Below are positions 6,616-20,638 of a stretch of DNA of 64,000 nucleotides, one piece after another. The position numbers were made by a program, and so were the translations under genes. Within the stretch, counting starts at the first letter, position 1. The number at the start of each line of letters is the position of its first letter. Source of the DNA: a virus; IMG/VR virus record IMGVR_UViG_3300042302_000730, positions 16,742 to 80,741 of that record; one strand, written 5' to 3'. Below the pieces are notes generated by a model. It saw nothing but the letters and a program-made list of their open reading frames with translations, was not told the origin of the DNA and ran no database searches.

Positions 6616-7173
6616 TTAGAAGTGAAAGTCTACTGGTACTAGATATTGTAGAGCAGACTGTTCAGGTTTGTCAAGTCGCTCATTTAAATACTCGAATTCT
6701 GAGACATGTTCTTGAAGATCGTAAAACCCACTGTCGGATGTCCAAGAGCCCATGAGCATTTCTGCTGCTTGTTTAATAGAATAAACATTCATTAGGGTAT
6801 CCCCATTCCAGGGACCCCTGCCACCCTCTGAAGCATAGTCGACCATTTGACTAATAAACTTATCAGTCTTAATCTCTACTATGTTTCTGTTCATGGTTTG
6901 AGAGCGGAACCTTAAGATATCCTTAATTACTTCTTGGAACTTTTCTTTATTTTCAGCATAGCCAATAACATCAGTACTGTCATGGTTATAACCGTCCATA
7001 AAATCTTTAGATTTTTGTGCATTAGTGCTCCACCTTCCTCCGCCAACGACGTGCCAATCTGACCAATCGCCTATGCGGTATCCGTCTTCGTTTGTTTGTA
7101 GGCTTACAACAACTTTGTCAAAAGCCTCTTGCTTGTTATCTGCTTCAACTGCTAGATAATGTAGGGTATGCAT
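6616..7173 (-). CDS. Conserved phage hypothetical protein, 185 aa
   Basis: HYLAVEADNKQEAFDKVV at the N-terminus resembles small proteins that handle per-codon quality or antirestriction tasks, but there is no firm family. WSDWHVVGGGRW (about 37-48) is distinctive. TAATG overlap with the upstream gene at 7173. Part of the 7496-5757 operon. Confidence 0.55.
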   Translation of the reverse strand: MHTLHYLAVEADNKQEAFDKVVVSLQTNEDGYRIGDWSDWHVVGGGRWSTNAQKSKDFMDGYNHDSTDVIGYAENKEKFQEVIKDILRFRSQTMNRNIVEIKTDKFISQMVDYASEGGRGPWNGDTLMNVYSIKQAAEMLMGSWTSDSGFYDLQEHVSEFEYLNERLDKPEQSALQYLVPVDFHF

Positions 7174-7496
7174 TAGTCGTCCTCTCCTGCAATTAGTTGT
7201 ATCTGATAATACTGTTTGTCATCGTAGGGCACGGTAGTTACAAAGTAACCAATCCTATTAACCATATGCATACCGTCAGAGATATACGTACCACCGTTAT
7301 CTCCGTCACAGTAAGTCCATACAGTGTTGGGATGTAGAAACGCATGGTCTCTAACAAACTCTACCTCATCACCATATGTCTCAAACATATAGCCATGTTC
7401 ACCGTCATTGAATGAGGCATTCTCGTCTAAATGGTTTGGGATAGGCTTGAACTGTTTAAACCATTCATCCTCTGTAAGTTCTACTAACTTGGGCAT
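7173..7496 (-). CDS. Hypothetical protein, 107 aa
   Basis: MPKLVELTEDEWFKQFKPIP, then beta-rich sequence (TVWTYCDGDNGGTYISDGMH). First gene of the 7496-5757 operon. AAAGAAG lies 4 nt upstream of the ATG. Preceded by a -35/-10 promoter and a Crp-like operator. Confidence 0.6.
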   Translation of the reverse strand: MPKLVELTEDEWFKQFKPIPNHLDENASFNDGEHGYMFETYGDEVEFVRDHAFLHPNTVWTYCDGDNGGTYISDGMHMVNRIGYFVTTVPYDDKQYYQIQLIAGEDD

Positions 7497-7526
7497 TGGG
7501 CTTCTTTCTCTAGGGTTCTTAATACA

Positions 7527-7555
7527 ATTTTACTACGAACTGGGAAAAATTACAA
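7527..7555 (-). promoter_or_regulatory. Early promoter with -35 and -10
   Basis: Minus-strand TTGTAA (7550-7555), 17-nt spacer, TAAAAT (7527-7532). It precedes gene 7496. The operator at 7566-7581 would be centred near -53.5. Confidence 0.6.
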
Positions 7556-7565
7556 GGTATCGTAA

Positions 7566-7581
7566 GGTGATCTACATCACA
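7566..7581. promoter_or_regulatory. Crp/GlxR-like operator
   Basis: GGTGATCTACATCACA: GTGA-N6-TCACA with central TA. It overlaps the stop of the upstream gene and sits upstream of the promoter for gene 7496. Confidence 0.6.
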
Positions 7582-7732
7582 CTCCACCCCAATAGGTTTG
7601 AGGGTTCTCTTCAAGAAGTCCCCTAATACTATTAACAACCTCTTCATCAGACAGGACCTCACCATCTGTGTTTATAAGTTCCATAATTTTATCTATAATT
7701 GCACCGTGGTCTTGAGAATATTGAGGAGCCAT
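7577..7732 (-). CDS. Hypothetical acidic protein, 51 aa
   Basis: MAPQYSQDHGAIIDKIMELI, then an acidic helix (EVLSDEEVVNSIRGLLEE). TAATG overlap at 7732 couples it to the 54-aa gene. Last gene of the 8262-7577 operon. Confidence 0.55.
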   Translation of the reverse strand: MAPQYSQDHGAIIDKIMELINTDGEVLSDEEVVNSIRGLLEENPQTYWGGV

Positions 7733-7896
7733 TATTCAAAGTACCCCTCTGCCCATAGGCCTTGCAAGAAGTCAGAGGCTTGTGTAAGGTTTCTGTGTAG
7801 CCAAGGATCATCGTCAGAATTCACGGTAGTTAGAGCAGATTCAACTGCAAGAACCATATTATCTAAATCATCTCTTTCATACCCTAGCATTGACAT
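7732..7896 (-). CDS. Hypothetical protein, 54 aa
   Basis: MSMLGYERDDLDNMVLAVES, then DPWLHRNLTQASDF. Linked by TAATG overlaps at both ends. A start at ATG 7890 is the alternative. No family recognised. Confidence 0.55.
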   Translation of the reverse strand: MSMLGYERDDLDNMVLAVESALTTVNSDDDPWLHRNLTQASDFLQGLWAEGYFE

Positions 7897-8057
7897 TACT
7901 CACCCCAATATTCTAAGATAGTATTAAGAGTGATATGGATACGACAATCACAATCACCGCTAGCCATGTTGTCTATTAGATCTAGGTGTGAGAAATTATC
8001 CTCGTATATGGTTTCTACTAATTGGTTTATGGTTTTGGGTTTAAACTGCGTAATCAT
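7896..8057 (-). CDS. Hypothetical protein, 53 aa
   Basis: MITQFKPKTINQLVETIYED, then GDCDCRIHITL. The start lies within the end of the 73-aa gene (17-nt overlap); the stop overlaps the next start (TAATG). Function unknown. Confidence 0.5.
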   Translation of the reverse strand: MITQFKPKTINQLVETIYEDNFSHLDLIDNMASGDCDCRIHITLNTILEYWGE

Positions 8058-8262
8058 CTGCATACTCCTTAAAGTACCAGTTAAGGGATTTTACATTTAA
8101 GTTTAACTCATCATAAGGGTATTTGTCAAGCACGTATTGTATTGCGTCCCCTGCGGTTTTAAAATCAGAGACACACCACTCGTCAATAGATACTTCCCAA
8201 CAGTTAACTCCACCAGGAGAGCATGAGTAATCCATTTCATATATTTCTACGTTTAGGGTCAT
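8041..8262 (-). CDS. Hypothetical protein, 73 aa
   Basis: MTLNVEIYEMDYSCSPGGVN, beta then helix (TAGDAIQYVLDKYPYDEL). First gene of the 8262-7577 operon. TAAAAT lies exactly 6 nt upstream, so it is probably leaderless. Confidence 0.6.
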   Translation of the reverse strand: MTLNVEIYEMDYSCSPGGVNCWEVSIDEWCVSDFKTAGDAIQYVLDKYPYDELNLNVKSLNWYFKEYADDYAV

Positions 8263-8268
8263 ATTAAT

Positions 8269-8297
8269 ATTTTACAGGCAACTGGGAAAAAAGTCAA
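8269..8297 (-). promoter_or_regulatory. Leaderless promoter with -35 and -10
   Basis: Minus-strand TTGACT (8292-8297), 17-nt spacer ending TG, TAAAAT (8269-8274), exactly 6 nt before ATG 8262. The spacer shares TTTTTCCCAGTT with the promoter at 7527-7555. Confidence 0.65.
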
Positions 8298-8356
8298 GCG
8301 TTCTTAATGAAACAATTGTGTGTTATTATTTAAATAGTCATGCCCGGGCCCACTTG

Positions 8357-8430
8357 CGATCCCAACGGGACTTGAACCCGTAGCCTTTACCGTGACAGGG
8401 TAACGATCTAACCAATTGATCTATGGGACC
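8357..8430 (-). tRNA. tRNA-Asp (GTC)
   Basis: 74 nt with a full cloverleaf. The acceptor stem GGTCCCA/TGGGATC and discriminator G fit aspartate. The anticodon stem TTACC/GGTAA with loop CTGTCAC gives GTC, and the T arm is ACGGG-TTCAAGT-CCCGT. CCA is not encoded. It follows the DUF932 gene on the same strand and may share its transcript. Confidence 0.95.
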
Positions 8431-8434
8431 AGCG

Positions 8435-8455
8435 GAGCAGTTTTAAATCATGCTC
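8435..8455 (-). other. Intercistronic hairpin family, copy A
   Basis: Stem GAGCA/TGCTC around loop GTTTTAAATCA (plus-strand view), followed by AGGATTTTA. Lies between the stop of the DUF932 gene (8468) and tRNA-Asp. Confidence 0.5.
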
Positions 8456-8467
8456 AGGATTTTATTG

Positions 8468-9484
8468 CTAAACTAGTTGCAAAGTATTTTGAACAATAGT
8501 TAGCAAACGATTTTTCTCTGCATTTATTACAGGGTCAAATCCAGAAGCAGCAGCAAACATGCTTTCGCTATTACCACCACGAGCAGAACGATACCAGTCT
8601 AAACGCTCAGTTAGTGCATTGAACGCACCCCAAGCATTTCCACTAATCATTCCGTTAAACTCTCCAGTATAGATATCGTTAATCATATCTACTTTGTTTT
8701 CCCATTTCTTTAGAGAGCCCTTGCTATCGGTTTCAGGTTTAGGATATGCAGCAAGAATAATGTTATTGAAATCTTGTGCGGTGATTTCTTTTGTTATCAT
8801 AGCATGAGCCATTTTATCAAATGCGTCCATGTATGAATTAGCCATACCTAATGCTTGACGAGCAACAGCAACTTTGCCCTGAGCAGTTTGAGTATGACGG
8901 ATTTTGAAAGATTGCTTGACGCCATCTTTCTTGCGTGTACGGTTAAGTGCAACATTAAGAGTATTAGCGCACACAACACGAACGGGTGTTATGCTTGCTT
9001 GAATAGCGATTGAGCCATCGTGTGATGTGTTGATAAGCAAATAAGTTTTAACAACATCTGCCACACCATTTGGGTCTAATACAGTTTCACGCTCTAATGC
9101 AAGAGAGCCAAATACTACACGCCCACCCTTAAGAGAGCCAGCAGTTTCCCATCGTCCACCACCATCAAGAATATTATCACCGAATGAAAATAAATCTTCA
9201 TTTTGTAGTGGAACATAACGCTCACCAACAATTCCCAAAACATCAGTTTGAGATTTGTCAGTAGGATTTGTGCGAACAACATATTGATATTGTTTGTCAG
9301 ATACTAAACTAGATGGGATTTCTAAATCCTCTAGTCTAACATTCCAATTATTAAGATTAGCAGCAACTAACATTTCGTTAGTGTTTTTCTCAGTATCAAA
9401 TACAGTACCAAGATTGTGCCATGCAGGTTCACGGAATGATGCAAAACTTGCCACACCGTTTTGAGTTTCTAACTCATGGGCCAT
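8468..9484 (-). CDS. DUF932 phage/plasmid-like protein
   Basis: 338 residues, the usual size for the DUF932/TIGR03299 family common in actinophages and plasmids. Signatures: AHELET...REPAWHNLGT at the N-terminus, VGERYVPLQNEDLF (about 91-104), GSLKGGRVVFGSLAL, and RVVCANTLNVAL (about 171-182). Function is unestablished. SD GAAAGGA lies upstream of ATG 9484. The promoter at 9511-9539 is the best -35/-10 match in the window, suggesting high expression. Confidence 0.9.
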   Translation of the reverse strand: MAHELETQNGVASFASFREPAWHNLGTVFDTEKNTNEMLVAANLNNWNVRLEDLEIPSSLVSDKQYQYVVRTNPTDKSQTDVLGIVGERYVPLQNEDLFSFGDNILDGGGRWETAGSLKGGRVVFGSLALERETVLDPNGVADVVKTYLLINTSHDGSIAIQASITPVRVVCANTLNVALNRTRKKDGVKQSFKIRHTQTAQGKVAVARQALGMANSYMDAFDKMAHAMITKEITAQDFNNIILAAYPKPETDSKGSLKKWENKVDMINDIYTGEFNGMISGNAWGAFNALTERLDWYRSARGGNSESMFAAASGFDPVINAEKNRLLTIVQNTLQLV

Positions 9485-9510
9485 TTTTTTCCTTTCGATC
9501 GTTTTAACTA

Positions 9511-9539
9511 AGTTTAGCAGTCATGGCTGACAATGTCAA
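9511..9539 (-). promoter_or_regulatory. Early promoter with -35 and -10
   Basis: Minus-strand TTGACA (9534-9539), 17-nt spacer, TGC + TAAACT (9511-9516). Drives the DUF932 gene. No Crp-like site upstream. Confidence 0.7.
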
Positions 9540-9577
9540 ATAGGATTGGGGGAAATGGTTTAATCTTCTTAAATAGT

Positions 9578-9591
9578 ACAAATCGGACATT
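9578..9591. promoter_or_regulatory. CGGACATT motif, copy 1
   Basis: ACAAATCGGACATT, followed by GGGCGGGCCGGGC. It lies about 80 bp upstream of the predicted start of the DUF932 promoter. Related copies are at 11478, 12347 and 15286. Confidence 0.4.
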
Positions 9592-9615
9592 TCGGGCGGG
9601 CCGGGCATTTTAATA

Positions 9616-9636
9616 GGACAGTTTATGATCATGTCC
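9616..9636 (-). other. Intercistronic hairpin family, copy D
   Basis: Stem GGACA/TGTCC around loop GTTTATGATCA, then AGGATCTTGA. The stem differs from the other copies by compensatory changes. It follows the gene ending at 9700. Confidence 0.5.
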
Positions 9637-9699
9637 AGGATCTTGATAGCCCCCTATCAAATTTAAACGGTCCCTGCAGCGGATGCTACAGATCTCTTA

Positions 9700-10197
9700 T
9701 TAGTTCTCTTCCAGTGATACATCGTCCACAGTTAGGTCCGCTTCATAGTCATATGAACTTATTTCTGCGTCAATGGTTACATTGCTTAGGTCAAAATCTT
9801 CAACCTCATCCAGTGGCACCTGTATTGTTCCGCTGAATGTAACAGTTCCGTATACGCTAATCTCCTTCATAGGATTAATAGCAAAGTGTTCTGCTAGCGC
9901 TTTTAAAACTTCTTCTTTGGAATAGTTTGGGTCATACCATTCAACAATGTGCTCTTCAAGCCACTCAATGTCACCACGTCGCTCTGCAGCCAATGCAGAT
10001 GATCTTGCTGCATACTCTCGTGACTTATGAAGTTGCCATTCAATCTCAGTAACTTTATCAGTCATGAATGTTGCTGCTGGCTCTTCCCCTAGTTGCACAC
10101 CATGTGAAGGTGTCAGTTCAGGTATATACTTGTAGGTCACAAGTAGGTTGGGATTATAAGAAACAGTTAACTGATCTTGTAACATTACTTCGCTCAT
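9700..10197 (-). CDS. Hypothetical protein, 165 aa
   Basis: MSEVMLQDQLTVSYNPNLLV; a central helical segment (SREYAARSSALAAERRGDIE), and a C-terminal beta domain (ISVYGTVTFSGTIQVPLDEV). ATG 10197 is chosen over 10251 because AAGGA precedes it and the -10 box lies within the longer frame. It is adjacent to the DUF932 gene. No family recognised. Confidence 0.6.
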   Translation of the reverse strand: MSEVMLQDQLTVSYNPNLLVTYKYIPELTPSHGVQLGEEPAATFMTDKVTEIEWQLHKSREYAARSSALAAERRGDIEWLEEHIVEWYDPNYSKEEVLKALAEHFAINPMKEISVYGTVTFSGTIQVPLDEVEDFDLSNVTIDAEISSYDYEADLTVDDVSLEEN

Positions 10198-10222
10198 TAG
10201 GGGTTCCTTTTCTGTTAATACA

Positions 10223-10251
10223 ATAATATCACCATGGCCTGTGAAATGCAA
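10223..10251 (-). promoter_or_regulatory. Early promoter with -35 and -10
   Basis: Minus-strand TTGCAT (10246-10251), 17-nt spacer ending TGA, TATTAT (10223-10228). Drives gene 10197. Confidence 0.6.
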
Positions 10252-10283
10252 GTTCAGTTCTTAATTAGTCTCACATAGTGGGA

Positions 10284-10299
10284 CGTGATCTACATCACA
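10284..10299. promoter_or_regulatory. Crp/GlxR-like operator
   Basis: CGTGATCTACATCACA; GTGA-N6-TCACA with central TA, centred near -75.5 of the promoter for gene 10197. Confidence 0.65.
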
Positions 10300-10331
10300 T
10301 GTGCCCGGGTTTTTGCGGGGCAATTAAAAGG

Positions 10332-10355
10332 TGAGCAGTTTAGAACTCATGCTCA
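10332..10355 (-). other. Intercistronic hairpin family, copy B
   Basis: Stem TGAGCA/TGCTCA around a 12-nt loop starting GTTT and ending TCA, then GGAGTCTTA. It follows the gene ending at 10412. Confidence 0.5.
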
Positions 10356-10411
10356 GGAGTCTTATCTCAGGAATAACTTAGCAGATGAGCCAAGTGCTTA
10401 TCAGAGATAAA

Positions 10412-10582
10412 TTATTTAGTTGTGCTTACCATAGCAAGGCGTCTTGCGCCATTTGCTAATTGTAAGGATACTCTAGTGGTCTTAGAGTTAATAGGTGAGA
10501 ACTTTACAATTCTACCTGTAATACCTGTTTTGCTTGTGGTGAATAAATCACCTAGTTGGTATGTGTATCCGCCTAGTGTCAT
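10412..10582 (-). CDS. Small beta-rich protein, 56 aa
   Basis: YTYQLGDLFTTSKTGITGRI, then SPINSKTTRVSLQL. It aligns along its length with the 54-aa product at 11177 (VGDxYTSxKSxVxGTI; INS/TNK-TxRV), so they are paralogs. The pattern suggests a small SH3/KOW-like barrel. No experimental family is known to me. Confidence 0.6.
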   Translation of the reverse strand: MTLGGYTYQLGDLFTTSKTGITGRIVKFSPINSKTTRVSLQLANGARRLAMVSTTK

Positions 10583-10668
10583 TTGGGTCTTGCCTTTCTG
10601 TTTGGGTTTGGGTCATTACTTATCTAGTCTAACATATTTTGGGGGCATAGTCAAATACCCCCAAACTA

Positions 10669-11091
10669 TTAAAGGTATCTAGCGATAGCGTTATATGTGC
10701 TAGTGCTAACTGTTTCCTCGTCGGTCATTTTAAGGATACGGATAGCGTTTTCCATTTCCTCTTTCTGCTCACGATAAGTATGAACATGGATTTGCTCAAA
10801 CTTACGCTCAGGTTCAGCAGGGAACTCGCCTTCTTTAACTGTTAAATCAAAATCAACATTAAGGTTGTTGTTCCATTGGCGATAGTTAGTTCTAAGGTTT
10901 TCTGCCTTAGAAACATTAGCGATAGCAAAAGCAAATAGTTCTTTTTTCCAAGCGTCTATTTGGGTTTGGAACTTTGCCTCGTTCTCGTCTTGTGTTTTAT
11001 AGTTAGCCTCTAGTTCGGCTAATCTGTTTTCTAAGGCTGTAATAACCTTAGCAGTAGCGATTTTTACGCTGATGGGTTTGCTTCTTGCCAT
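10669..11091 (-). CDS. Hypothetical coiled-coil protein, 140 aa
   Basis: A basic N-terminus (MARSKPISVKIATAKVITAL) leads into a long coiled coil (ENRLAELEANYKTQDENEAK). The C-terminal half holds a charged beta segment and a helix. A weak GAAACCCATCACA leader precedes the ATG. A copy of the conserved hairpin (11131-11153) lies in the leader, between this gene and the 54-aa gene. Confidence 0.6.
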   Translation of the reverse strand: MARSKPISVKIATAKVITALENRLAELEANYKTQDENEAKFQTQIDAWKKELFAFAIANVSKAENLRTNYRQWNNNLNVDFDLTVKEGEFPAEPERKFEQIHVHTYREQKEEMENAIRILKMTDEETVSTSTYNAIARYL

Positions 11092-11130
11092 TGTGATGGG
11101 TTTCCGTTTCTGTTAGTGGGGCTTTTAAGT

Positions 11131-11153
11131 TGAGCAGTTTTTGGTCATGCTCA
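11131..11153 (-). other. Intercistronic hairpin family, copy C
   Basis: Stem TGAGCA/TGCTCA around loop GTTTTTGGTCA, then GGACTTTA. Lies between the stop at 11177 and the next start at 11091. Confidence 0.5.
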
Positions 11154-11176
11154 GGACTTTAGCCACTAGGCTAAGA

Positions 11177-11341
11177 TTACTTTGCTGTCCAAGTAGTCCA
11201 GCGAGTTGAGCCATTAACATCTAACTTAACTCTAACTGTGTTCTTGTTAGTTGGCACAATTTCGGTAATAGTTCCTACTACCTTTGATTTTTGTGATGTG
11301 TAGGTGTCGCCTACTTTGTATGTTGCGGTTGATACGGACAT
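11177..11341 (-). CDS. Small beta-rich protein, 54 aa (paralog of 10412-10582)
   Basis: TYKVGDTYTSQKSKVVGTIT, then PTNKNTVRVKLDVNGSTRWT. Paralog of the 56-aa product at 10412. AAGGAGA upstream sets the start. The two copies share downstream hairpins as well as sequence, suggesting duplication of a gene-plus-hairpin cassette. Confidence 0.6.
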   Translation of the reverse strand: MSVSTATYKVGDTYTSQKSKVVGTITEIVPTNKNTVRVKLDVNGSTRWTTWTAK

Positions 11342-11375
11342 GGTTCTCCTTCTTGTTGGTTTGGCTTACTACCTA

Positions 11376-11404
11376 AGAATAACATTATTTGGTCAAAAAT
11401 ACAA
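11376..11404 (-). promoter_or_regulatory. Early promoter with -35 and -10
   Basis: Minus-strand TTGTAT (11399-11404), 17-nt spacer ending TGT, TATTCT (11376-11381). Drives gene 11341. Confidence 0.65.
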
Positions 11405-11444
11405 GTTATATTTCTAATAATCTCATATTTTGAGATGTGATATC

Positions 11445-11460
11445 TGTGATGTATCTCACA
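11445..11460. promoter_or_regulatory. Crp/GlxR-like operator, perfect half-sites
   Basis: TGTGATGTATCTCACA: exact TGTGA-N6-TCACA with central TA, centred near -83.5 of the promoter for gene 11341. Confidence 0.75.
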
Positions 11461-11477
11461 CCAGCGTATAGAAACGG

Positions 11478-11500
11478 ACAAAACGGACATTTAGTGTCCT
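11478..11500. promoter_or_regulatory. CGGACATT motif, copy 2, with palindrome
   Basis: ACAAAACGGACATT runs into GGACA-TTTAG-TGTCC, a perfect 5-bp inverted repeat, in the spacer upstream of gene 11341 and downstream of the gp88-like gene. Confidence 0.4.
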
Positions 11501-11566
11501 AGACCAGCAAACAATAAATAGACGAATATAATTGATAGTCCTATTAAGAGTTCCAAGCACCACTCC

Positions 11567-12289
11567 TTATTTTTTAGATGATGAGAAAACAATATCGCTT
11601 TTAGAGTATACACACAATCCGCATGATACGCAAGCACTTCCAGCATTTGAGATTAGGGGAATGGCTTTTAGGTTCTCAGGACACTTAGCGCCAGGTTTAT
11701 CAAACAATTTTTTCATATCTGCTTGACCTATAGCAAAATTCTGTGCAAGGTATGCAAGGCGCACTCCATGATCTTTCTTTAAACTAACACCTATTTGCTT
11801 ATTCTCGCTATCTGTTGAATAGTATAAAGATAGATTATCAATACCCTTAAGCATTAAGGCTGCTGCTTCTACTCGTGTATATACCCAAAATTTTATATCT
11901 GCATTGTTAAGGATGATCTGCTTCCATGCTTTGGTGTACGTGTCATTAAAGAAATCACCGTCCCAATGAATGCGAAATAGTAGTGGGGCTTTTTTCTTTT
12001 CACAATCTTTTTTAAAATCATTAATCATATTATCTAATAGACTTATCATAGTTGATTCGTCTGCGTCTTTTAATAACTCCCAATTGTGAAGGAGGTTAGC
12101 CTTTACTCCTTTGAATAGTTTTTCAAGTTTCCCAGCGTAGCAAACAGTCTCGCAGATAGACGTAGCACCAGGACATGAAAAGTTTTTTCCTGCGGGTAAT
12201 CCGAACGTGTTTGCAATTGCGGCTTGCTTTCCATTTTTTGTAACAAGGTTAGCGACCTTTCTATCATGCGATCTCTTTAATTGGGTCAT
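11567..12289 (-). CDS. gp88-like phage protein (Cys-rich)
   Basis: 240 residues from MTQLKRSHDRKV. It resembles the actinophage gene product 88 family: SCPGATSICETVCYAG near residues 38-53, FRIHWDGDFFND in the middle and a C-terminal cluster CVSCGLCVYSK. The cysteine clusters suggest a metal or Fe-S site; the family's function is not established to my knowledge. ATG 12289 is preferred over 12340 because TGTTATACT lies 5 nt upstream and would otherwise be inside the gene. Confidence 0.7.
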   Translation of the reverse strand: MTQLKRSHDRKVANLVTKNGKQAAIANTFGLPAGKNFSCPGATSICETVCYAGKLEKLFKGVKANLLHNWELLKDADESTMISLLDNMINDFKKDCEKKKAPLLFRIHWDGDFFNDTYTKAWKQIILNNADIKFWVYTRVEAAALMLKGIDNLSLYYSTDSENKQIGVSLKKDHGVRLAYLAQNFAIGQADMKKLFDKPGAKCPENLKAIPLISNAGSACVSCGLCVYSKSDIVFSSSKK

Positions 12290-12294
12290 AATTA

Positions 12295-12303
12295 AGTATA
12301 ACA
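12295..12303 (-). promoter_or_regulatory. Leaderless promoter
   Basis: Minus-strand TGTTATACT, 5 nt before ATG 12289. TTGTAT lies 17 nt upstream of the -10 as a -35. Confidence 0.6.
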
Positions 12304-12346
12304 TTTTTAGGGGAAAAATACAAGTATACGTAATTAACAAAATGGG

Positions 12347-12360
12347 ACAAAACGGACATT
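12347..12360. promoter_or_regulatory. CGGACATT motif, copy 3
   Basis: ACAAAACGGACATT, followed by GGCCGGGCGCC, about 64 bp upstream of the gp88-like start. Confidence 0.4.
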
Positions 12361-12373
12361 GGCCGGGCGCCTC

Positions 12374-12613
12374 TTATTTCAACATCATTAAATCAAATTG
12401 CTGATACTCAGAAACTTCAATAGTATCTCTTTCACCAAAATCATTTATAATTTCTAAAGTGTATCCATCGGCTAATGAAATTATTTCAGTAATACAAACA
12501 ACCTCGCCATCAACAAGAATGTTATCGTCAACCATTAACTGTCCTGCAGTTAACATATCAACTTTATAGTAATCCATAATTAGAATAATATCATCGTTTT
12601 CTAATGTTTTCAT
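12374..12613 (-). CDS. Hypothetical protein, 79 aa
   Basis: MKTLENDDIILIMDYYKVDM, then VCITEIISLADGYTLEIIND: a small beta-barrel-like pattern. Its start overlaps the TGA of the 30-aa gene (ATGA), so it is coupled in the 13352-12374 operon. Confidence 0.6.
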   Translation of the reverse strand: MKTLENDDIILIMDYYKVDMLTAGQLMVDDNILVDGEVVCITEIISLADGYTLEIINDFGERDTIEVSEYQQFDLMMLK

Positions 12614-12702
12614 TGTTCCTCAATTTCTGCTAGTGTTTCCCATAGAATAGGCTCTAAGATTAGCGCAACTGCATCTAGTTTATCTTGCAAGTCTTTACTC
12701 AT
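12610..12702 (-). CDS. Very small protein, 30 aa
   Basis: MSKDLQDKLDAVALILEPIL, a single acidic amphipathic helix. Overlaps the upstream gene by 8 nt and the downstream gene by 4 nt, which supports translation despite its size. Confidence 0.5.
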   Translation of the reverse strand: MSKDLQDKLDAVALILEPILWETLAEIEEQ

Positions 12703-12979
12703 CTACTGGCTCGATAAACCACTCTAGGTGTGCGTGTGATACCAATGCACTAGCGGTAGTCCAAGTATTACCCTTCCAACTAATCTGGAATCCATCAACA
12801 ATTGGCAACTCTATTTTACGAGAGTAGTCCTCATCATAGTAAGCGTCAATAGCCTCGATGCAAGGCTGCACCATTACTGTTGGTATTGGTGGATAATGAT
12901 TACCTTGCAAGTGATACTTTAATTGTGTTTCTAGGTCTAGCGTTGTATCTGCTAAACCTATTGCTGTTATTGATCCCAT
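12695..12979 (-). CDS. Hypothetical protein, 94 aa
   Basis: MGSITAIGLADTTLDLETQL... with HYPPIPTVMVQPCIEAIDAY. TAATG overlap at 12979 couples it to the upstream gene. No family recognised. Confidence 0.6.
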   Translation of the reverse strand: MGSITAIGLADTTLDLETQLKYHLQGNHYPPIPTVMVQPCIEAIDAYYDEDYSRKIELPIVDGFQISWKGNTWTTASALVSHAHLEWFIEPVDE

Positions 12980-13188
12980 TATTTAATTGATACCTTTCCG
13001 TTGGTGTAGAAGGTTTTAGTATACATCTTACCTGTTGGGTCAGACAAGTTATAGGTTGCGTATTCTTTAGCAAAGCCATAGTCCACGCATTTATCCCAAG
13101 CATGAACGGCGTCAAACAAATCGCTAACTCGCAGGGTATGAATTAACTCTCCGTCATACGAAGTAGTAAGTGAATAAGTATATTCCAT
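12979..13188 (-). CDS. Hypothetical protein, 69 aa
   Basis: MEYTYSLTTSYDGELIHTLR; alpha/beta. ATG 13188 is preferred over 13203 because it forms a TAATG overlap with the upstream stop. No family recognised. Confidence 0.6.
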   Translation of the reverse strand: MEYTYSLTTSYDGELIHTLRVSDLFDAVHAWDKCVDYGFAKEYATYNLSDPTGKMYTKTFYTNGKVSIK

Positions 13189-13352
13189 TAGTTTAGTTTC
13201 CAATCTAGTAGGTTGTCGGCAGGGATATTGTAAGGATTACACTCGCACGCCCATACATCATAGTCTATAGCATTTCCTACGAATTGCCAACCATAGCCAT
13301 AACAACTATCGCACTCCAATATATCCATTACGCTTGCTTTTACTTTACCCAT
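13188..13352 (-). CDS. Small zinc-finger-like protein, 54 aa
   Basis: CDSCYGYGW (residues 14-22) and WACECNP (33-39) form a CxxCxGxG...CxC pattern like half of a DnaJ-type zinc site. It is paralogous to the 49-aa product at 13856 (CNDCNGQG...CEC). AAGAAGG sets the start. First gene of the 13352-12374 operon. Confidence 0.6.
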   Translation of the reverse strand: MGKVKASVMDILECDSCYGYGWQFVGNAIDYDVWACECNPYNIPADNLLDWKLN

Positions 13353-13376
13353 TTTGCCTTCTTTCTTTATATCTTT

Positions 13377-13385
13377 ATCCTATCA
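13377..13385 (-). promoter_or_regulatory. Early extended -10 promoter
   Basis: Minus-strand TGATAGGAT, followed by the leader ATATAAAGAAAG shared with other early units. The -35 is poor. Drives gene 13352. Confidence 0.55.
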
Positions 13386-13435
13386 GATACAACCGACAAA
13401 ATCTAATTAGACACCATAATCTGGAGAATCTGGGG

Positions 13436-13451
13436 TGTGATCTTAACCACA
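13436..13451. promoter_or_regulatory. Crp/GlxR-like operator
   Basis: TGTGATCTTAACCACA; one mismatch in the right half-site. Centred near -73.5 of the promoter for gene 13352. Confidence 0.6.
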
Positions 13452-13521
13452 CGTAAAGACTATTGATTGCGACACGCCGTCAGCGCCGGGCCTTTCGAAC
13501 GTATGTTCTAGGGCCTTTTGT

Positions 13522-13674
13522 TTATTTGTTTTTAAGTCGCTCAGTTCGCAACGCAATTTGCAATCTGCGAATTTCTTTTTGTTGTGCAATATTTTGTTTC
13601 CAAAATAAACCCATAACAGTTAAGCAACCAAGTAGCGCAATTATTATTGCAATCACATCTAAATTAGTTAACAT
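13522..13674 (-). CDS. Small membrane protein, 50 aa
   Basis: One membrane segment (residues 6-24, DVIAIIIALLGCLTVMGLF), then a basic coiled-coil tail (QQKEIRRLQIALRTERLK). Overlaps the end of the upstream gene by 11 nt. Possibly a lysis accessory or membrane anchor; unproven. Confidence 0.55.
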   Translation of the reverse strand: MLTNLDVIAIIIALLGCLTVMGLFWKQNIAQQKEIRRLQIALRTERLKNK

Positions 13675-13855
13675 TTATTAATCCAATCTCATCAATTCCG
13701 CAAGCCTTTTCAAATCTTGCAAAGTCAAAGTTTTCGTTATCTGATTTGAACCACTCAGCAAACTCTTGAACTAAATCTTCATAAGTGTTTTGTGGAACTT
13801 CATCTACAAATCCAGCCAATATGTTTGCGGTTTTGATATAGTCTTTTCTAGTCAT
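13664..13855 (-). CDS. Hypothetical acidic protein, 63 aa
   Basis: MTRKDYIKTANILAGFVDEV, then FAEWFKSDNENFDFARFEKA; helical and acidic, with the feel of a phage early regulator or inhibitor. It starts directly after the stop of the 49-aa gene. No family recognised. Confidence 0.6.
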   Translation of the reverse strand: MTRKDYIKTANILAGFVDEVPQNTYEDLVQEFAEWFKSDNENFDFARFEKACGIDEIGLINVN

Positions 13856-14005
13856 TTAGTCAGCCTCTTTCGTAGTAAATAAAGTTCCTAGTGCGAAATC
13901 ATTACACTCGCATTTTTCCACATTGTAGTCAAGGTCATTACCCCAAAAGATAAGACCTTGCCCATTGCAATCATTACAATCAAAACGCATAACAGAGTTA
14001 ATCAT
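13856..14005 (-). CDS. Small zinc-finger-like protein, 49 aa
   Basis: FDCNDCNGQGLIFW (residues 8-21) and EKCECND: CxxCxGxG...CxC, a paralog of the 54-aa product at 13188. ATGA overlap with the upstream gene. Probably binds one zinc ion. Confidence 0.6.
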   Translation of the reverse strand: MINSVMRFDCNDCNGQGLIFWGNDLDYNVEKCECNDFALGTLFTTKEAD

Positions 14006-14184
14006 TGTTTTTTACCTCTTAGCGTTCCTCTAATCCCTAGCATATCGCAATCTAATTTAACAGATACGCCAACAGGTAATTGGTTTGGATAAGTGTTAAT
14101 AAACTCAGCCACTTGTCCTTTAGTGGTTAAGTAAATATTTTTTACTGCGCCATTATAGGTTTCTAGTTTTATAGTGTAAGTCAT
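14002..14184 (-). CDS. Hypothetical protein, 60 aa (paralog of 16186-16371)
   Basis: MTYTIKLETYNGAVKNIYLT, then EFINTYPNQLPVGVSVKLDC. Aligns over its length with the rightward 61-aa product at 16186 (GTVKEMPF; EFIERYADALPLGTAV). ATG 14184 is chosen because the -10 box lies inside the longer frame and GAAAGG lies upstream. First gene of the 14184-13522 operon. Confidence 0.65.
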   Translation of the reverse strand: MTYTIKLETYNGAVKNIYLTTKGQVAEFINTYPNQLPVGVSVKLDCDMLGIRGTLRGKKQ

Positions 14185-14218
14185 TTCTGACCACCTTTCT
14201 TTATTGTTTGATAAGACT

Positions 14219-14247
14219 ATCCTATCAAATCCCACCGACATTTTCAA
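14219..14247 (-). promoter_or_regulatory. Early promoter with -35 and -10
   Basis: Minus-strand TTGAAA (14242-14247), 17-nt spacer ending TGA, TAGGAT (14219-14224), then leader ATAAAGAAAGG. Drives gene 14184. Confidence 0.65.
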
Positions 14248-14268
14248 CCTGCGGGGGGTGTGTTGCCT

Positions 14269-14284
14269 TGTGATTTATCTCACA
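14269..14284. promoter_or_regulatory. Crp/GlxR-like operator, perfect half-sites
   Basis: TGTGATTTATCTCACA: exact TGTGA-N6-TCACA with central TA, centred near -64.5 of the promoter for gene 14184. Confidence 0.75.
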
Positions 14285-14402
14285 AAGCCCCTTCTTGGAA
14301 TAAGCCAATTTCTAGGTCAAGCAATTCTGCGGGGGTAGCCTCAGAAAGGTCAACCCACCCAGCACCTTGTTCATCAAGGCGAAATATCTCAATATATCCC
14401 AT
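14280..14402 (-). CDS. Hypothetical acidic protein, 40 aa
   Basis: MGYIEIFRLDEQGAGWVDLS, a beta hairpin followed by an acidic helix (PAELLDLEIGLF). It starts 2 nt after the stop of the 67-aa gene. Its stop overlaps the operator at 14269. Confidence 0.55.
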   Translation of the reverse strand: MGYIEIFRLDEQGAGWVDLSEATPAELLDLEIGLFQEGAL

Positions 14403-14404
14403 TA

Positions 14405-14608
14405 TTATTCACCAACCTTCACCGCAATTGTGCGGTATTTATTACGCAAAGTATGAGGAGAAAAAATTTCTACCAAATACGCTTCCGTATTTTCTCCATA
14501 CCAAATTGGTTGATTAGATTTCTCTGCTGAGACAATTTCTCCAGACAAAGTTTTTGAGTTATAAGTTTTTCCCACTAGGAGATTTTCTATTGTGTATAAG
14601 TTAGCCAT
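14405..14608 (-). CDS. Hypothetical beta-rich protein, 67 aa
   Basis: MANLYTIENLLVGKTYNSKT, then LSGEIVSAE and a YRTIAVKVGE end; a small barrel-like pattern loosely like the 54/56-aa paralogs. GAAAGGAAGTGG leader upstream. First gene of the 14608-14280 pair. Confidence 0.6.
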   Translation of the reverse strand: MANLYTIENLLVGKTYNSKTLSGEIVSAEKSNQPIWYGENTEAYLVEIFSPHTLRNKYRTIAVKVGE

Positions 14609-14645
14609 TGTTAGCCACTTCCTTTCTTTATTTTCTTACTCCGTA

Positions 14646-14674
14646 AGTCTATCAGAATTAGCAGACATTTACAA
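14646..14674 (-). promoter_or_regulatory. Early promoter with -35 and -10
   Basis: Minus-strand TTGTAA (14669-14674), 17-nt spacer ending TGA, TAGACT (14646-14651), leader ATAAAGAAAGG. Drives gene 14608. Confidence 0.65.
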
Positions 14675-14715
14675 CCTACTAGCCAGTAATTCCAAATAAT
14701 GAGACGCTCAAGTCT

Positions 14716-14731
14716 TGTGAGAAAAATCACA
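14716..14731. promoter_or_regulatory. Crp-like operator, perfect half-sites
   Basis: TGTGAGAAAAATCACA: exact half-sites, centre AA rather than TA. Centred near -84.5 of the promoter for gene 14608. Confidence 0.7.
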
Positions 14732-14786
14732 TCGTACGTAAGTTATCCACAGCCTGTGTACGACACGCCAGGTGCGCCGGGTTTTT

Positions 14787-14912
14787 TTATTGCAATTTAT
14801 TTTTATGTTTTGTTTTTCTTGAATACTTTTTTTTATTTGGAATTGGAGTCGCAGCATTACTACGACGCAATTCTTGAATACGAATAATTTTGTTTTTTAT
14901 TTCTTTTAACAT
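14787..14912 (-). CDS. Hypothetical very basic protein, 41 aa
   Basis: MLKEIKNKIIRIQELRRSNA, ending in a Lys-rich tail (KKKYSRKTKHKNK). Likely binds nucleic acid. It starts 4 nt after the stop of the zinc-ribbon gene. Last gene of the 15192-14787 operon. Confidence 0.5.
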   Translation of the reverse strand: MLKEIKNKIIRIQELRRSNAATPIPNKKKYSRKTKHKNKLQ

Positions 14913-14916
14913 TTTA

Positions 14917-15018
14917 TTATTCCCAACAACTAGAACATTTAACAGTTAAGTCTTCTGCTTCATCAGCAGGAAGCGATAGCACAAAGCCATCGCAAACTTT
15001 ACAAAATAAATCTATCAT
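14917..15018 (-). CDS. Small zinc-ribbon-like protein, 33 aa
   Basis: FCKVCDGF (residues 5-12) and KCSSCWE (27-33): CxxC-N18-CxxC, a minimal zinc ribbon. It follows directly on the upstream stop. Function unknown. Confidence 0.55.
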   Translation of the reverse strand: MIDLFCKVCDGFVLSLPADEAEDLTVKCSSCWE

Positions 15019-15192
15019 TTACTTACCAACTTTCCAAGAAGTCCAATAAGACATGAAGTCATTATCCTCACGATAGTGAGAAGTTATATTCTGCTCACAA
15101 TTCTCGCAGAAGGTAAATCTTTCGTCATTAACGATAGAGATAGCATTTTTATTAGGTGTATGCTTACACACTTTATTTATAACTGAATTCAT
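15019..15192 (-). CDS. Small putative zinc-binding protein, 57 aa
   Basis: CKHTPN (residue 9 on) and FCENCEQN (28-35) give a C-x-H...CxxC arrangement. AGAAAGGA upstream. First gene of the leftward operon beside the divergent control region. Confidence 0.6.
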   Translation of the reverse strand: MNSVINKVCKHTPNKNAISIVNDERFTFCENCEQNITSHYREDNDFMSYWTSWKVGK

Positions 15193-15243
15193 TTGAATTC
15201 CTTTCTAAGTTTGAGAACCTTTCTCAACTTTCTTTATACTAGA

Positions 15244-15252
15244 AGTATAACA
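15244..15252 (-). promoter_or_regulatory. Early extended -10 promoter
   Basis: Minus-strand TGTTATACT with leader TATAAAGAAAG. Drives gene 15192. The -35 is weak, with AAATGTC in its place as in other early promoters. Confidence 0.6.
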
Positions 15253-15285
15253 CCTACCACTGACATTTACTGACTAGTAGGTAGG

Positions 15286-15299
15286 ACAAATCGGACATT
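15286..15299. promoter_or_regulatory. CGGACATT motif, copy 4
   Basis: ACAAATCGGACATT between the promoter of gene 15192 and its Crp-like operator. An inverted relative (TGTCCAATATGTCCGAATT) lies at 15405-15423. Confidence 0.4.
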
Positions 15300-15305
15300 G
15301 TGTCG

Positions 15306-15321
15306 TGTGATGTAGGTCATG
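15306..15321. promoter_or_regulatory. Crp/GlxR-like operator
   Basis: TGTGATGTAGGTCATG, central TA, centred near -76.5 of the leftward promoter. Confidence 0.55.
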
Positions 15322-15347
15322 TGGATAACTTAAGCGTGAAATGGGTA

Positions 15348-15363
15348 TGTGATCTATATCATG
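15348..15363. promoter_or_regulatory. Crp/GlxR-like operator
   Basis: TGTGATCTATATCATG, central TA; between the two divergent promoters. Confidence 0.55.
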
Positions 15364-15427
15364 TGGATAACTCTCTCAGACACACCCGATAGCGCCGGGC
15401 TACATGTCCAATATGTCCGAATTGTCG

Positions 15428-15443
15428 TGTGGTGTATATCACT
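15428..15443. promoter_or_regulatory. Crp/GlxR-like operator
   Basis: TGTGGTGTATATCACT, central TA, centred near -75.5 of the rightward promoter 15476-15504. Confidence 0.5.
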
Positions 15444-15475
15444 AATTACATGCGTGTTATTTACGGCGTGTCGTC

Positions 15476-15504
15476 TTGACTTTTGGGGTTATCTCTGCTA
15501 TAAT
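15476..15504 (+). promoter_or_regulatory. Strong rightward early promoter
   Basis: TTGACT (15476-15481), 17-nt spacer ending TGC, TATAAT (15499-15504): the best rightward early promoter. Its transcript begins with the micro-ORF leader. Confidence 0.75.
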
Positions 15505-15537
15505 TCCATTATACAAAAAAATAAAGAAGCAGACTCA

Positions 15538-15661
15538 ATGAGCCTAGCAAATAACCCTCGATAAGAGGATGAGCCTAGCAAGTAAGTGAGTTAGAGATTA
15601 GATAGCCTCAATGAGCCTACCAAATAAGCCTAGCAATAGGATGAGCGTAGCAATTAAGTGA
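15538..15661 (+). repeat. Repeated micro-ORF leader (MSLA repeats)
   Basis: Five copies of AGCCTAGCAA-like units (starting 15541, 15572, 15614, 15628, 15644); four begin with ATG. They encode MSLANNPR (15538-15564), MSLASK (15569-15589) and a 16-residue peptide starting MSLPNK (15611-15661). Each unit ends in or near a stop codon. The array lies in the leader of the strong early promoter and touches the operator at 15657. Confidence 0.55.
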
Positions 15662-15672
15662 GGTATCTCACA
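15657..15672. promoter_or_regulatory. Crp/GlxR-like operator
   Basis: AGTGAGGTATCTCACA, central TA, centred near -64.5 of the promoter for gene 15762. Confidence 0.6.
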
Positions 15673-15716
15673 CCACGACACTAGGGGAAAGTCCCCAAAA
15701 TGTCAGTCCCCCCTGC

Positions 15717-15722
15717 TAGACT
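15717..15722 (+). promoter_or_regulatory. Early extended -10 promoter
   Basis: TGC + TAGACT, with AAATGTCAG near -35 and the TATAAAGAAAG leader used by the leftward early units. The -10 lies inside a C6/G5 hairpin (15708-15728). Confidence 0.55.
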
Positions 15723-15761
15723 AGGGGGTATAAAGAAAGTATCTTGAAAGGATAACTATAA

Positions 15762-15962
15762 ATGATAAACAATAACCCTAACAATAACATTATTGCGGAT
15801 ATTAGAAAAGCCCAACAGGCTCGCTATGCTAAAGAGCATGCGCTTGCTATGGAAAGTTTTCCATGGATTGCTGAGAGCATTAACGCTTATCGCAACGCTA
15901 CTCCTGAGCAATTAGCACAGGTAGAGGCTATCACTTCTAATAGATTAGGATTCTCGCTATGA
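15762..15962 (+). CDS. Hypothetical protein, 66 aa
   Basis: Asn-rich start (MINNNPNNNIIADIRKAQQA), then helices (PWIAESINAYRNATPEQLAQ). GAAAGGA lies 9 nt upstream. First gene of the rightward early operon 15762-16465; its stop overlaps the next ATG (ATGA). Confidence 0.6.
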   Translation: MINNNPNNNIIADIRKAQQARYAKEHALAMESFPWIAESINAYRNATPEQLAQVEAITSNRLGFSL

Positions 15963-16051
15963 CTAACGCTGATAAGATTAACGAAGCCATAGAGGCTTTA
16001 CAAAATGCTAACAAAGCGTTAGTAGAGATGTTCGGAGAGGACGAAGAATAA
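15959..16051 (+). CDS. Very small acidic helical protein, 30 aa
   Basis: MTNADKINEAIEALQNANKA..., one amphipathic helix with an acidic end. ATGA overlap upstream; the next gene starts immediately at 16052. Confidence 0.5.
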   Translation: MTNADKINEAIEALQNANKALVEMFGEDEE

Positions 16052-16189
16052 ATGGAATTATATTTTGATCTAGACTACTTTAGTCTATACATTGACAGCA
16101 TTGGTCTAGCACTAGACATACCATCATGGTTATTAGTTGGCACTATTGCTTTCATCTATTCAATTAAGTTAATTAGGAGAGATAGATGA
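16052..16189 (+). CDS. Small membrane protein, 45 aa
   Basis: Residues 18-39 (IGLALDIPSWLLVGTIAFIY region) form one membrane segment, then KLIRRDR, a positive anchor. ATGA overlap with the next gene. Function unknown. Confidence 0.55.
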   Translation: MELYFDLDYFSLYIDSIGLALDIPSWLLVGTIAFIYSIKLIRRDR

Positions 16190-16371
16190 TAACAGTAGAA
16201 CTAACATCAGTAAGCGGTACAGTAAAAGAGATGCCGTTTGAAAACAAGGACAGGGTGTTAGAGTTTATCGAGAGATATGCTGACGCATTACCATTAGGAA
16301 CAGCGGTTAACATTAACGCACCGCTAATTGGTATTCATTCGGGTTGGATACAAGGACGCAAGAGTGTCTGA
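16186..16371 (+). CDS. Hypothetical protein, 61 aa (paralog of 14002-14184)
   Basis: MITVELTSVSGTVKEMPFEN, then EFIERYADALPLGTAVNINA. Paralog of the leftward 60-aa product at 14002, so the divergent early blocks carry related genes. GGAGAG lies upstream. ATGA overlap with the preceding gene. Confidence 0.65.
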   Translation: MITVELTSVSGTVKEMPFENKDRVLEFIERYADALPLGTAVNINAPLIGIHSGWIQGRKSV

Positions 16372-16465
16372 GTATTCTGCTGAACAGTTAAGACGCAAGG
16401 CCCATCTAGACAATGGTGGGACACTTGCTGACTACGATAGGACACACTACCCAGAGCAAGCATAG
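16364..16465 (+). CDS. Very small protein, 33 aa, GTG start
   Basis: MSEYSAEQLRRKAHLDNGGT from GTG 16364, overlapping the previous gene by 8 nt. A hydrophilic helix plus tail. The gene at 16872 starts with the same MSEY. Last gene of the rightward early operon. Confidence 0.45.
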   Translation: MSEYSAEQLRRKAHLDNGGTLADYDRTHYPEQA

Positions 16466-16590
16466 AGGGCTTCCCCCCTTTATGTGCTCACTATATTTTG
16501 TGGTTTTTATTTTCTAAATGCTGCATCGTACATCTAAACAAAATATTCAGATTTTGTCAAAATAAAAATTTTTTCAGATTTTCCAGGTAG

Positions 16591-19819: not shown

Positions 19820-20542
19820 ATGGCAATAAGTAAAAACGTGCCAACGCCATTTGCAACAAAAGATGCATATATTGAAAAAGTTATAGAAGCGCAACAAAAC
19901 ATAACCCCAGAAACTTTTCCCACACCTCAAACATATGTTCCAATTCAAGGTCCACAAGGACCCCAAGGTTTACCAGGACTAGAAGGCGCACAAGGCCCTA
20001 AAGGCGACCCTGGACTTACAGGGCCTCCAGGTGCAAAAGGAAAAGAAGGAAAGCCTGGTAAAGACGGAATATCTTTATCTGGACAACAACCAGGTTGGGC
20101 AAAATATTATAATTCGCAAACACAAAAAATAAATTTAGGAATAACCGAAGGAGATAAAGGTTGGGTAACTCTTAATTTTAAAAGAAAGTTAAGTAATGAA
20201 GAGTTTTTGCCCAAAGACAACGAACGGCTATGGATTGACGAAGCACAAGGGTTTAATTTCTTAGGCCTTAAGGTAGGAACAAAAATACAGATTTCTTACA
20301 GTATTCAATTATCAACTTACTCTGCAAACACTGACGTTTGGGTAAGAACGCTTTTTACAAAAAATAACACAGAGCATGTAAATTTTGTGGGATCTTTAAA
20401 ATATCAAAATACTTATGATTTTGTTATAGATCAAACCTTGTATATAGAAGATGCATCTTTTAAAGGCATAGCAAAGCCACAAATAAGGACTGACTTCCCC
20501 TCAGATATGATTTTAAAAAGCATGACTATTTCTATCTGTTAA
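19820..20542 (+). CDS. Collagen-like tail fibre protein
   Basis: 240 residues. Residues about 42-88 are uninterrupted Gly-X-Y triplets ([35 protein letters not shown]), predicted to form a trimeric collagen helix. Several lysines sit in the Y position before Gly. The 150-residue C-terminal domain is beta-rich, a likely receptor-binding head. An N-terminal helix may attach to the virion. It lies in a region with 2OG oxygenases and a GT25-type glycosyltransferase (see findings). Confidence 0.75.
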
Positions 20543-20567: not shown

Positions 20568-20638
20568 TTTGAGTTCGTCTAATGGTCGGACCCCAGGTTC
20601 CGAACCTGACAATGAAGGTCCGATTCCTTCACTCAAAG
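20568..20638 (+). tRNA. tRNA-Arg (CCG)
   Basis: 71 nt. Acceptor TTTGAGT/ACTCAAA, D arm GTCT-AATGGTC-GGAC, anticodon stem CCAGG/CCTGA (outer pair mismatched), loop TTCCGAA giving anticodon CCG, T arm GAAGG-TCCGATT-CCTTC, discriminator G, no CCA. The A/U-rich acceptor base pairs at 1-72 are odd for arginine, so identity could differ from the anticodon prediction. Confidence 0.8.

Follow-up and report, generated by a model that had tools for sequence, protein, structure and literature searches.

Why does a phage carry, in the gaps between small genes, palindromes that resemble the operators of a bacterial regulator? The question is raised by virus record IMGVR_UViG_3300042302_000730 (80,741 bases), of which we analysed bases 16742-80741; this whole stretch of 64,000 nucleotides is called the window here. 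A sequence-only reading had proposed ten near-palindromes of the form TGTGA-N6-TCACA in the window, nine of them helically phased to promoters. We consider it probable, at about 0.74, that through these sites the host Crp activates the early operons of the phage from upstream. The palindromes would be operators for the host's own Crp/GlxR-type protein, whose dimer would bind 53-85 bp upstream of the early promoters, mostly on about one face of the helix, and would help the host RNA polymerase to start, in a class-I-like manner, at promoters whose spacer is 17 bp and whose -35 box is in many cases sub-consensus. This would tie the phage's leftward early operons, as well as its first rightward gene, to a global regulator of the host. 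We infer the binding of host Crp, the activation by this binding and the early expression of the block from the computational results that follow.

All ten near-palindromes were found where they had been placed, from 7566 to 15657. Those at 11445, 14269 and 14716 are indeed perfect, those at 7566, 10284, 13436 and 15657 have one mismatch and those at 15306, 15348 and 15428 have two; the central TA is present in eight of the ten, as had been reported. When the region 7001-16500 was compared with 500 dinucleotide shuffles of itself, seven sites with at most one mismatch were counted against a shuffle mean of 0.41 and a maximum of 3, and no such site lies in the remaining 71,241 bases of the record. 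For the window as a whole the excess shrinks to 7 against 2.63 (with a maximum of 7 in 200 shuffles), while perfect sites number 3 against 0.07. With two mismatches allowed there is no excess in the window, 28 being seen and 36 expected, so the three weakest sites (15306, 15348 and 15428) rest on their context and not on counts.

The same pattern was looked for in related phages. Two protein scans gave 159 viral loci, many of which overlap and are not independent, and in these the motif is strongly enriched: 553 perfect copies of TGTGA-N6-TCACA were counted, and 1175 when up to one mismatch is allowed, whereas none of 29 rearranged palindromes composed of these letters exceeds 13 and 228, respectively, and spacers of 2-12 other than 6 give at most 6 perfect occurrences. 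A site with at most one mismatch is present in 159/159 of these overlapping loci and a perfect one in 154/159. Seven of the 1175 sites were dropped as too close to locus ends, and clustering by context left 418 sites, 228 of them perfect. Within the site, position 6 favours T and positions 8-9 favour TA (symmetrised: T 0.54 at 6; T 0.54 and A 0.30 at 8), which is typical of Crp and GlxR sites. The restriction to one block also recurs. We considered 18 records of 80-118 kb, namely the window's own and 17 of 42 relatives picked for their length: every one carries 2-9 perfect sites, with 0 for the reversed-pattern control in each, and among the matches listed these sites fall within about 10 kb or, in one record (G023), at both record ends.

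The promoter model used was TTGACT-17-TAGACT, fitted over about 130 bp with no constraint on distance, and transcription starts were taken 7 nt after the -10. With this model all nine centre distances claimed for the window were reproduced, two of them on poor -35 boxes. The sites and predicted promoters are as follows.

7527-7555, minus strand: predicted promoter TTGTAA-17-TAAAAT for the 107-residue open reading frame (ORF) 7173-7496; coordinates computed
7566-7581: Crp-type site GGTGATCTACATCACA, one mismatch, centred at -53.5 of the promoter 7527-7555 (minus strand)
10223-10251, minus strand: predicted promoter TTGCAT-17-TATTAT for the ORF at 9700
10284-10299: Crp-type site CGTGATCTACATCACA, one mismatch, centre -75.5
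11376-11404, minus strand: predicted promoter TTGTAT-17-TATTCT for the 54-residue ORF 11177-11341
11445-11460: Crp-type site TGTGATGTATCTCACA, perfect, centre -83.5
13377-13405, minus strand: predicted promoter TAGATT-17-TAGGAT, poor -35, for the ORF 13188-13352
13436-13451: Crp-type site TGTGATCTTAACCACA, one mismatch, centre -73.5
14219-14247, minus strand: predicted promoter TTGAAA-17-TAGGAT for the ORF at 14002
14269-14284: Crp-type site TGTGATTTATCTCACA, perfect, centre -64.5
14646-14674, minus strand: predicted promoter TTGTAA-17-TAGACT for the ORF 14405-14608
14716-14731: Crp-type site TGTGAGAAAAATCACA, perfect, centre -84.5
15244-15272, minus strand: weak predicted promoter CAGTAA-17-TATACT for the ORF 15019-15192; the site at 15306 is centred at -76.5
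15306-15328: composite element, a Crp-type site TGTGATGTAGGTCATG, degenerate in its right half, that merges into a DnaA box TGTGGATAA
15348-15370: another composite of Crp-type site and DnaA box, at a distance of 42 bp from that at 15306; it is paired with no promoter
15428-15443: Crp-type site TGTGGTGTATATCACT, two mismatches, centre -75.5 of the rightward promoter
15476-15504, plus strand: predicted rightward promoter TTGACT-17-TATAAT
15657-15672: Crp-type site AGTGAGGTATCTCACA, one mismatch, centre -64.5 of the rightward promoter
15694-15722, plus strand: predicted rightward promoter CCCAAA-17-TAGACT, poor -35, for the ORF 15762-15962

Helical phasing is thin in the genome of the window alone and strong in the relatives. 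There, a model promoter adjoins 318 of the 418 sites (the remaining 100, with a promoter score of 7 or less, were dropped) and the distances peak at -53.5 (51 sites), -64.5 (45), -74.5 (30) and -84.5 (36). At a period of 10.25 bp, the 325 promoters found among 421 sites, of which 96 were dropped, give a resultant length R of 0.683, as compared with 0.061 for control palindromes (351 promoters among 1506); the difference between 421 and 418 sites in the two runs is due to clustering order. When sites were grouped by the family of the downstream protein, leaving out 25 of the 318 with no downstream ORF, the modal distances of 53 families still gave an R of 0.635 (nominal p about 5e-10). Within families, orthologous promoters differ by whole helical turns: family 0 (n = 42) has 14 sites at -83.5/-84.5, 9 at -73.5/-74.5, 8 at -63.5 and 11 elsewhere, and family 3 (n = 22) has 8 at -74.5 and 10 at -64.5. 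We also let the -10 be picked by its own score alone, with the strand inherited from the promoter-model run and 73 of the 418 sites left out as having no fitting -10. In this case the four 3-bp peaks, together 12 of 40 positions, hold 249 of 345 sites, and the -35 hexamer, which played no part in the choice of the -10, starts with TTG in 180/249 on-peak sites versus 13/96 off-peak. The class I-like phasing that had been suggested is thus upheld in the relatives as regards whole-turn steps upstream of the -35, but not as regards the register of E. coli, from which the peaks are off by about 2-3 bp.

Rather than covering the promoter, the sites stand upstream of its -35 box, and at one promoter they appear to be exchanged with -35 strength. 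At the promoter of the DUF932 gene, in 45 non-redundant relatives left after clustering (3 of 80 loci lying too near a contig end were excluded by hand), a Crp-type site is found in 17/23 cases with a degraded -35 versus 4/22 with TTGAC (Fisher p 0.0003); with perfect sites only, the counts are 10/23 and 1/22 (p 0.004). These statistics ignore kinship, so much of the exchange could come from one or few ancestral changes.

Which protein binds the sites was approached from two sides. The idea that the phage encodes a look-alike regulator was not borne out: neither PF00027 nor PF13545 has a match over the Pfam cut-off in the phage's own record or in the 42 related ones, which may be fragments, and below the cut-off we found only a weak PF00027 match in record G017 (E 0.008) and a weak helix-turn-helix (HTH) match in a 2407-residue tape-measure frame. 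Nor was any HTH family found among the early proteins scanned, which were part of the ORFs. The other approach was a scan of viral contigs for a Crp-type site followed at 9-39 bp by TTGAC-N18-TANNNT, which gave at least 120 stretches; 80 of them served for the first analyses and for the composite and second-motif counts and all 120 for the gap test, with 6 duplicates dropped. Among the 120 listed, 37 have homologues of 14 tested window proteins and in 83 none was detected. In these 83 loci, of which some are interrelated and a few may be distant members of the window phage family, the gap between site and promoter is exactly 10 in 25/87 cases (p 3e-17) and is 10, 20, 21, 31 or 32 in 49/87 (p 1e-17), the five gaps having been picked after the first 80 stretches were seen. 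One such locus (L321) matches OX376640 and OX376641 (74-75% over 43-48%), which are phages LanE43-AprE7 and AprF5, isolated on 'Ca. Planktophila' LanE-43 (PMC10202952). E7 and F5 have 2 perfect sites each, as compared with a mean of 0.10 for control palindromes (maximum 1 and 2). By eye, one of the F5 sites precedes TCAAAA-17-TAGAGT by 10 bp, which puts it at -53.5. In E7, the site in front of a gene with the same start as that in F5 is followed after 31 bp by TTGACT, with no good -10 at 17-bp spacing. The same motif and the same spacings thus occur in loci without detected homologues of the window proteins tested, and a common host protein is the simplest reading.

The candidate host order would be Nanopelagicales, to judge from the size and GC content of its genomes. 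An alignment of the DUF932 protein to genomes gave 3 loci, one of them a contig (82%) in a metagenome-assembled genome (MAG) of an unclassified Actinomycetota bacterium; a scan of genome contigs with GP88 gave no match, and a stricter motif run over 396 genomes of the phylum hit 4 genomes with one match each and singled out no host. Among 37 small genomes (0.6-1.8 Mb) near the MAG, a cyclic nucleotide-binding match is found in 29, exactly one in 28. The recognition helix GASRETVNKAL is present in 28/30 Crp loci examined, the nucleotide pocket GELSLFDP-PRTS is kept in 13 aligned Crp proteins of small genomes (chosen by RETVNKAL), and one candidate-host Crp matches over its full length (E 4e-78) the solved CRP structures 3d0s/3i54, which we take to be those of M. 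tuberculosis CRP.

Several results weigh against host Crp as the activator. On the side of the host, the link is one co-binned contig, the phage gene being found in 1/296 genomes of the order, and the MAG that holds this contig (G043) has no cyclic nucleotide-binding match. A perfect site occurs in 3/13 candidate-host genomes, once in each and in one case on the phage contig that was binned with the genome, and the reversed control gives 6. The complete genome G057 (1,328,793 bp, 45% GC) has 0 perfect sites and 0 intergenic one-mismatch sites, and in a de novo palindrome search of its intergenic DNA no Crp-like motif stands out. Class III adenylate cyclase (PF00211) is found in 0/20 genomes of the candidate order, other cyclase classes not having been searched. 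Since the candidate-host genomes have no excess of sites, either the phages use perfect sites that these hosts barely use, or the true host is another lineage. On the side of the phages, the starts to which all distances refer are predicted and the 159 loci are interdependent. The distance at 15306 rests on the poor -35 CAGTAA, where the model's own choice was -84.5, likewise weak; that at 15657 rests on CCCAAA, where the model preferred a leftward promoter. In E7 and F5 the model picked neither promoter, the assignment being by eye. The DUF932 family is an exception to the phasing, with 15/31 sites at -100.5 to -104.5 and no sharp fit to the four peaks; the very promoter that displays the exchange is therefore itself poorly phased. 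The register of E. coli class I sites (-61.5 plus whole turns) is not matched and -53.5 is heavily used. Finally, the nearest annotated relatives, the Stanwilliamsviridae and Rhodococcus phage Weasels2, have no perfect site in the stretches examined.

It is also necessary to consider what else the sites could be. A DNA-binding protein of the phage itself, of a fold that escapes recognition, might bind them and activate the early genes. In its favour, the phages are rich in such sites while the candidate host order shows no excess of them, and most early proteins examined belong to no family of known function; we nevertheless regard it as unlikely, because the motif shows Crp-like internal preferences, no PF00027/PF13545 match exceeds the cut-off in the 42 records, and a private regulator leaves unexplained why loci with no detected homologues share both motif and distances. 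Repression is another option, as the stoperators of cluster A mycobacteriophages are repressor operators. It would suit an actinophage with many copies of a site in the short gaps between its genes, as would the frequency of a GP88 relative among Mycobacterium phages, to which 270 of 375 matching records belong. Against it, the sites stand upstream of the -35, keep a helical phase over whole turns and accompany weak -35 boxes, and the early proteins scanned, a part of the ORFs, yielded no HTH family; we hold this reading to be very improbable.

The host Crp could also be bound for reasons other than activation, with the sites acting as a sponge, shaping the DNA, or working at the replication origin alone. 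The composite Crp-type/DnaA-box elements near the putative origin and the rarity of sites in the host point in this direction, but a sponge needs no phasing to promoters and does not predict an exchange with -35 strength, and we give this view little probability. Chance is rejected on the strength of the shuffles, the 29 permuted half-sites, the other spacers and the reversed pattern. As to a single functionless promoter cassette copied repeatedly, some promoter regions of the window do resemble each other, but orthologues differ by whole turns and 53 downstream families are involved; together with chance this explanation has a negligible probability. Activation by host Crp remains the preferred reading. 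The interpretation given by the sequence-only reading holds for the Crp/GlxR-type operators, phased upstream of promoters in a presumed early block in a manner that fits activation, but not for the look-alike regulator. For the reading of host cAMP that it also proposed the signs are divided: the Crp proteins aligned from the candidate order keep the residues of the nucleotide pocket, but the 20 genomes searched have no class III cyclase match, and a response of the phage promoters to cAMP is at most a possibility.

Each composite element (15306-15328 and 15348-15370) is TGTGA-N6-TCA running straight into the DnaA box. In the relatives, TGTGA-N6 precedes TCATGTGGATAA in 117/117 occurrences (redundant loci), and the composite type makes up 22 of 183 non-redundant DnaA boxes. 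Two composite elements are found in 48 loci, 41-42 bp apart in the seven pairs listed, and the pair is possibly the phage origin. Other repeated elements are seen near the sites. A second motif, TGTCCGWWTTGTCC, occurs at 11476, 12345 and 15284, with a variant at 15405; it is found 128 times in the 159 loci (redundant) versus 0 for a scrambled control, 5 times in the E7/F5-like group and 0 times in G057. Repeats like GAGCAGTTTTAAATCATGCTCAGGA lie between early genes at 8435-8464, 9616-9645 and 11132-11161, with inverted repeats visible by eye, and are candidate terminators or processing sites. Iteron-like short repeats GAGCCTAGCAA(A/G)TAA are present at 15531-15665, before the first rightward gene.

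As for the phage itself, the window encodes a portal protein, a head maturation protease, a tape-measure protein, a ribonucleotide reductase, a GP88 protein and a DUF932 protein, and its flank a WhiB-type protein, a type proposed as an actinophage marker (PMC10202952). Among phages with a name, the closest we found belong to the Stanwilliamsviridae of Streptomyces (portal 46%), which form the nearest set together with Weasels2 (capsid). Like the window phage they have a leftward block of small genes; unlike it, they have no perfect sites in the stretches examined: none in the first 20-24 kb of Karimac, Jay2Jay and Bmoc, with 1, 0 and 2 one-mismatch sites respectively, and none in 85 of the 135 kb of Weasels2, where two of the 7 one-mismatch sites are apparent repeats at both genome ends. 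The window also has genes for tRNA-Asp(GTC) at 8356-8430 and tRNA-Arg(CCG) at 20568-20638. The record holds three 2OG-Fe(II) oxygenase matches (L001:6235-6894, 10673-11437 and 11952-12533) and a collagen-repeat protein (window 19820-20542), and the phage could hydroxylate its own collagen-like fibre. Two JmjC matches (L001:9058-9669 and L001:15857-16423), a haem-peroxidase family match PF00141 (L001:79-1056) and a trypsin-family match PF00089 (L001:14480-15469) are present in the record as well.

A broader proposal, which we put forward tentatively and think rather doubtful, is that several unrelated groups of phages of abundant freshwater Actinobacteria independently made the host Crp their general early activator. 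Their streamlined hosts would hardly use perfect sites, the Crp regulon of the infected cell would be largely that of the phage, and the composite elements would add an action of Crp at the phage origin. So far host CRP control is known for single phage switches, while here the whole early programme of many phages appears to be tied to it, at precise helical spacings. If true, this would account for the way in which these phages begin transcription in freshwater bacteria that are tiny and grow slowly, would provide a large natural data set on the geometry of actinobacterial Crp activation, and would allow the coupling of phage growth to host state to be tested with cultured Planktophila.

Among the matches listed in open-licence full texts, we found no report on Crp/GlxR sites in actinophage promoters, so comparison has to be made with other systems. 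The GlxR operator of C. glutamicum, TGTGANNTANNTCACA, is like the phage sites, but its regulon consists of host genes, and none of the matches listed showed a phage making use of it. Class I CRP sites of E. coli, as those of the phages, stand upstream of the -35 at whole-turn steps; their series is -61.5, -72.5, -82.5, whereas that of the phages is -53.5, -64.5, -74.5, -84.5. In coliphage T1, a phage that is unrelated to the window phage, as its host is to that of the latter, host cAMP-CRP (cAMP, cyclic AMP) controls the pir, dam and recE promoters (PMC6737242). The likeness is host CRP on phage promoters, here putative; the difference is that in T1 CRP inhibits pir and steers a switch between lysogeny and lysis, while here many phased, activator-like sites lie upstream. 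The CRP regulon of M. tuberculosis is chromosomal, whereas the sites described here are on phages. Two clusters of CRP sites are described for M. tuberculosis, one from -60 to -40 and one from +1 to +20, and the sections of that study consulted report no sharp phasing (PMC4117774); genes lowered in the crp deletion include those with sites at -44.5, -54.5, -57.5, -59.5 and -88.5 (Table 2 of the same paper), and one gene with a site at -76.5 is raised in the crp mutant (PMC4117774). In view of these distances, the phage series may show the geometry of Crp activation proper to Actinobacteria.

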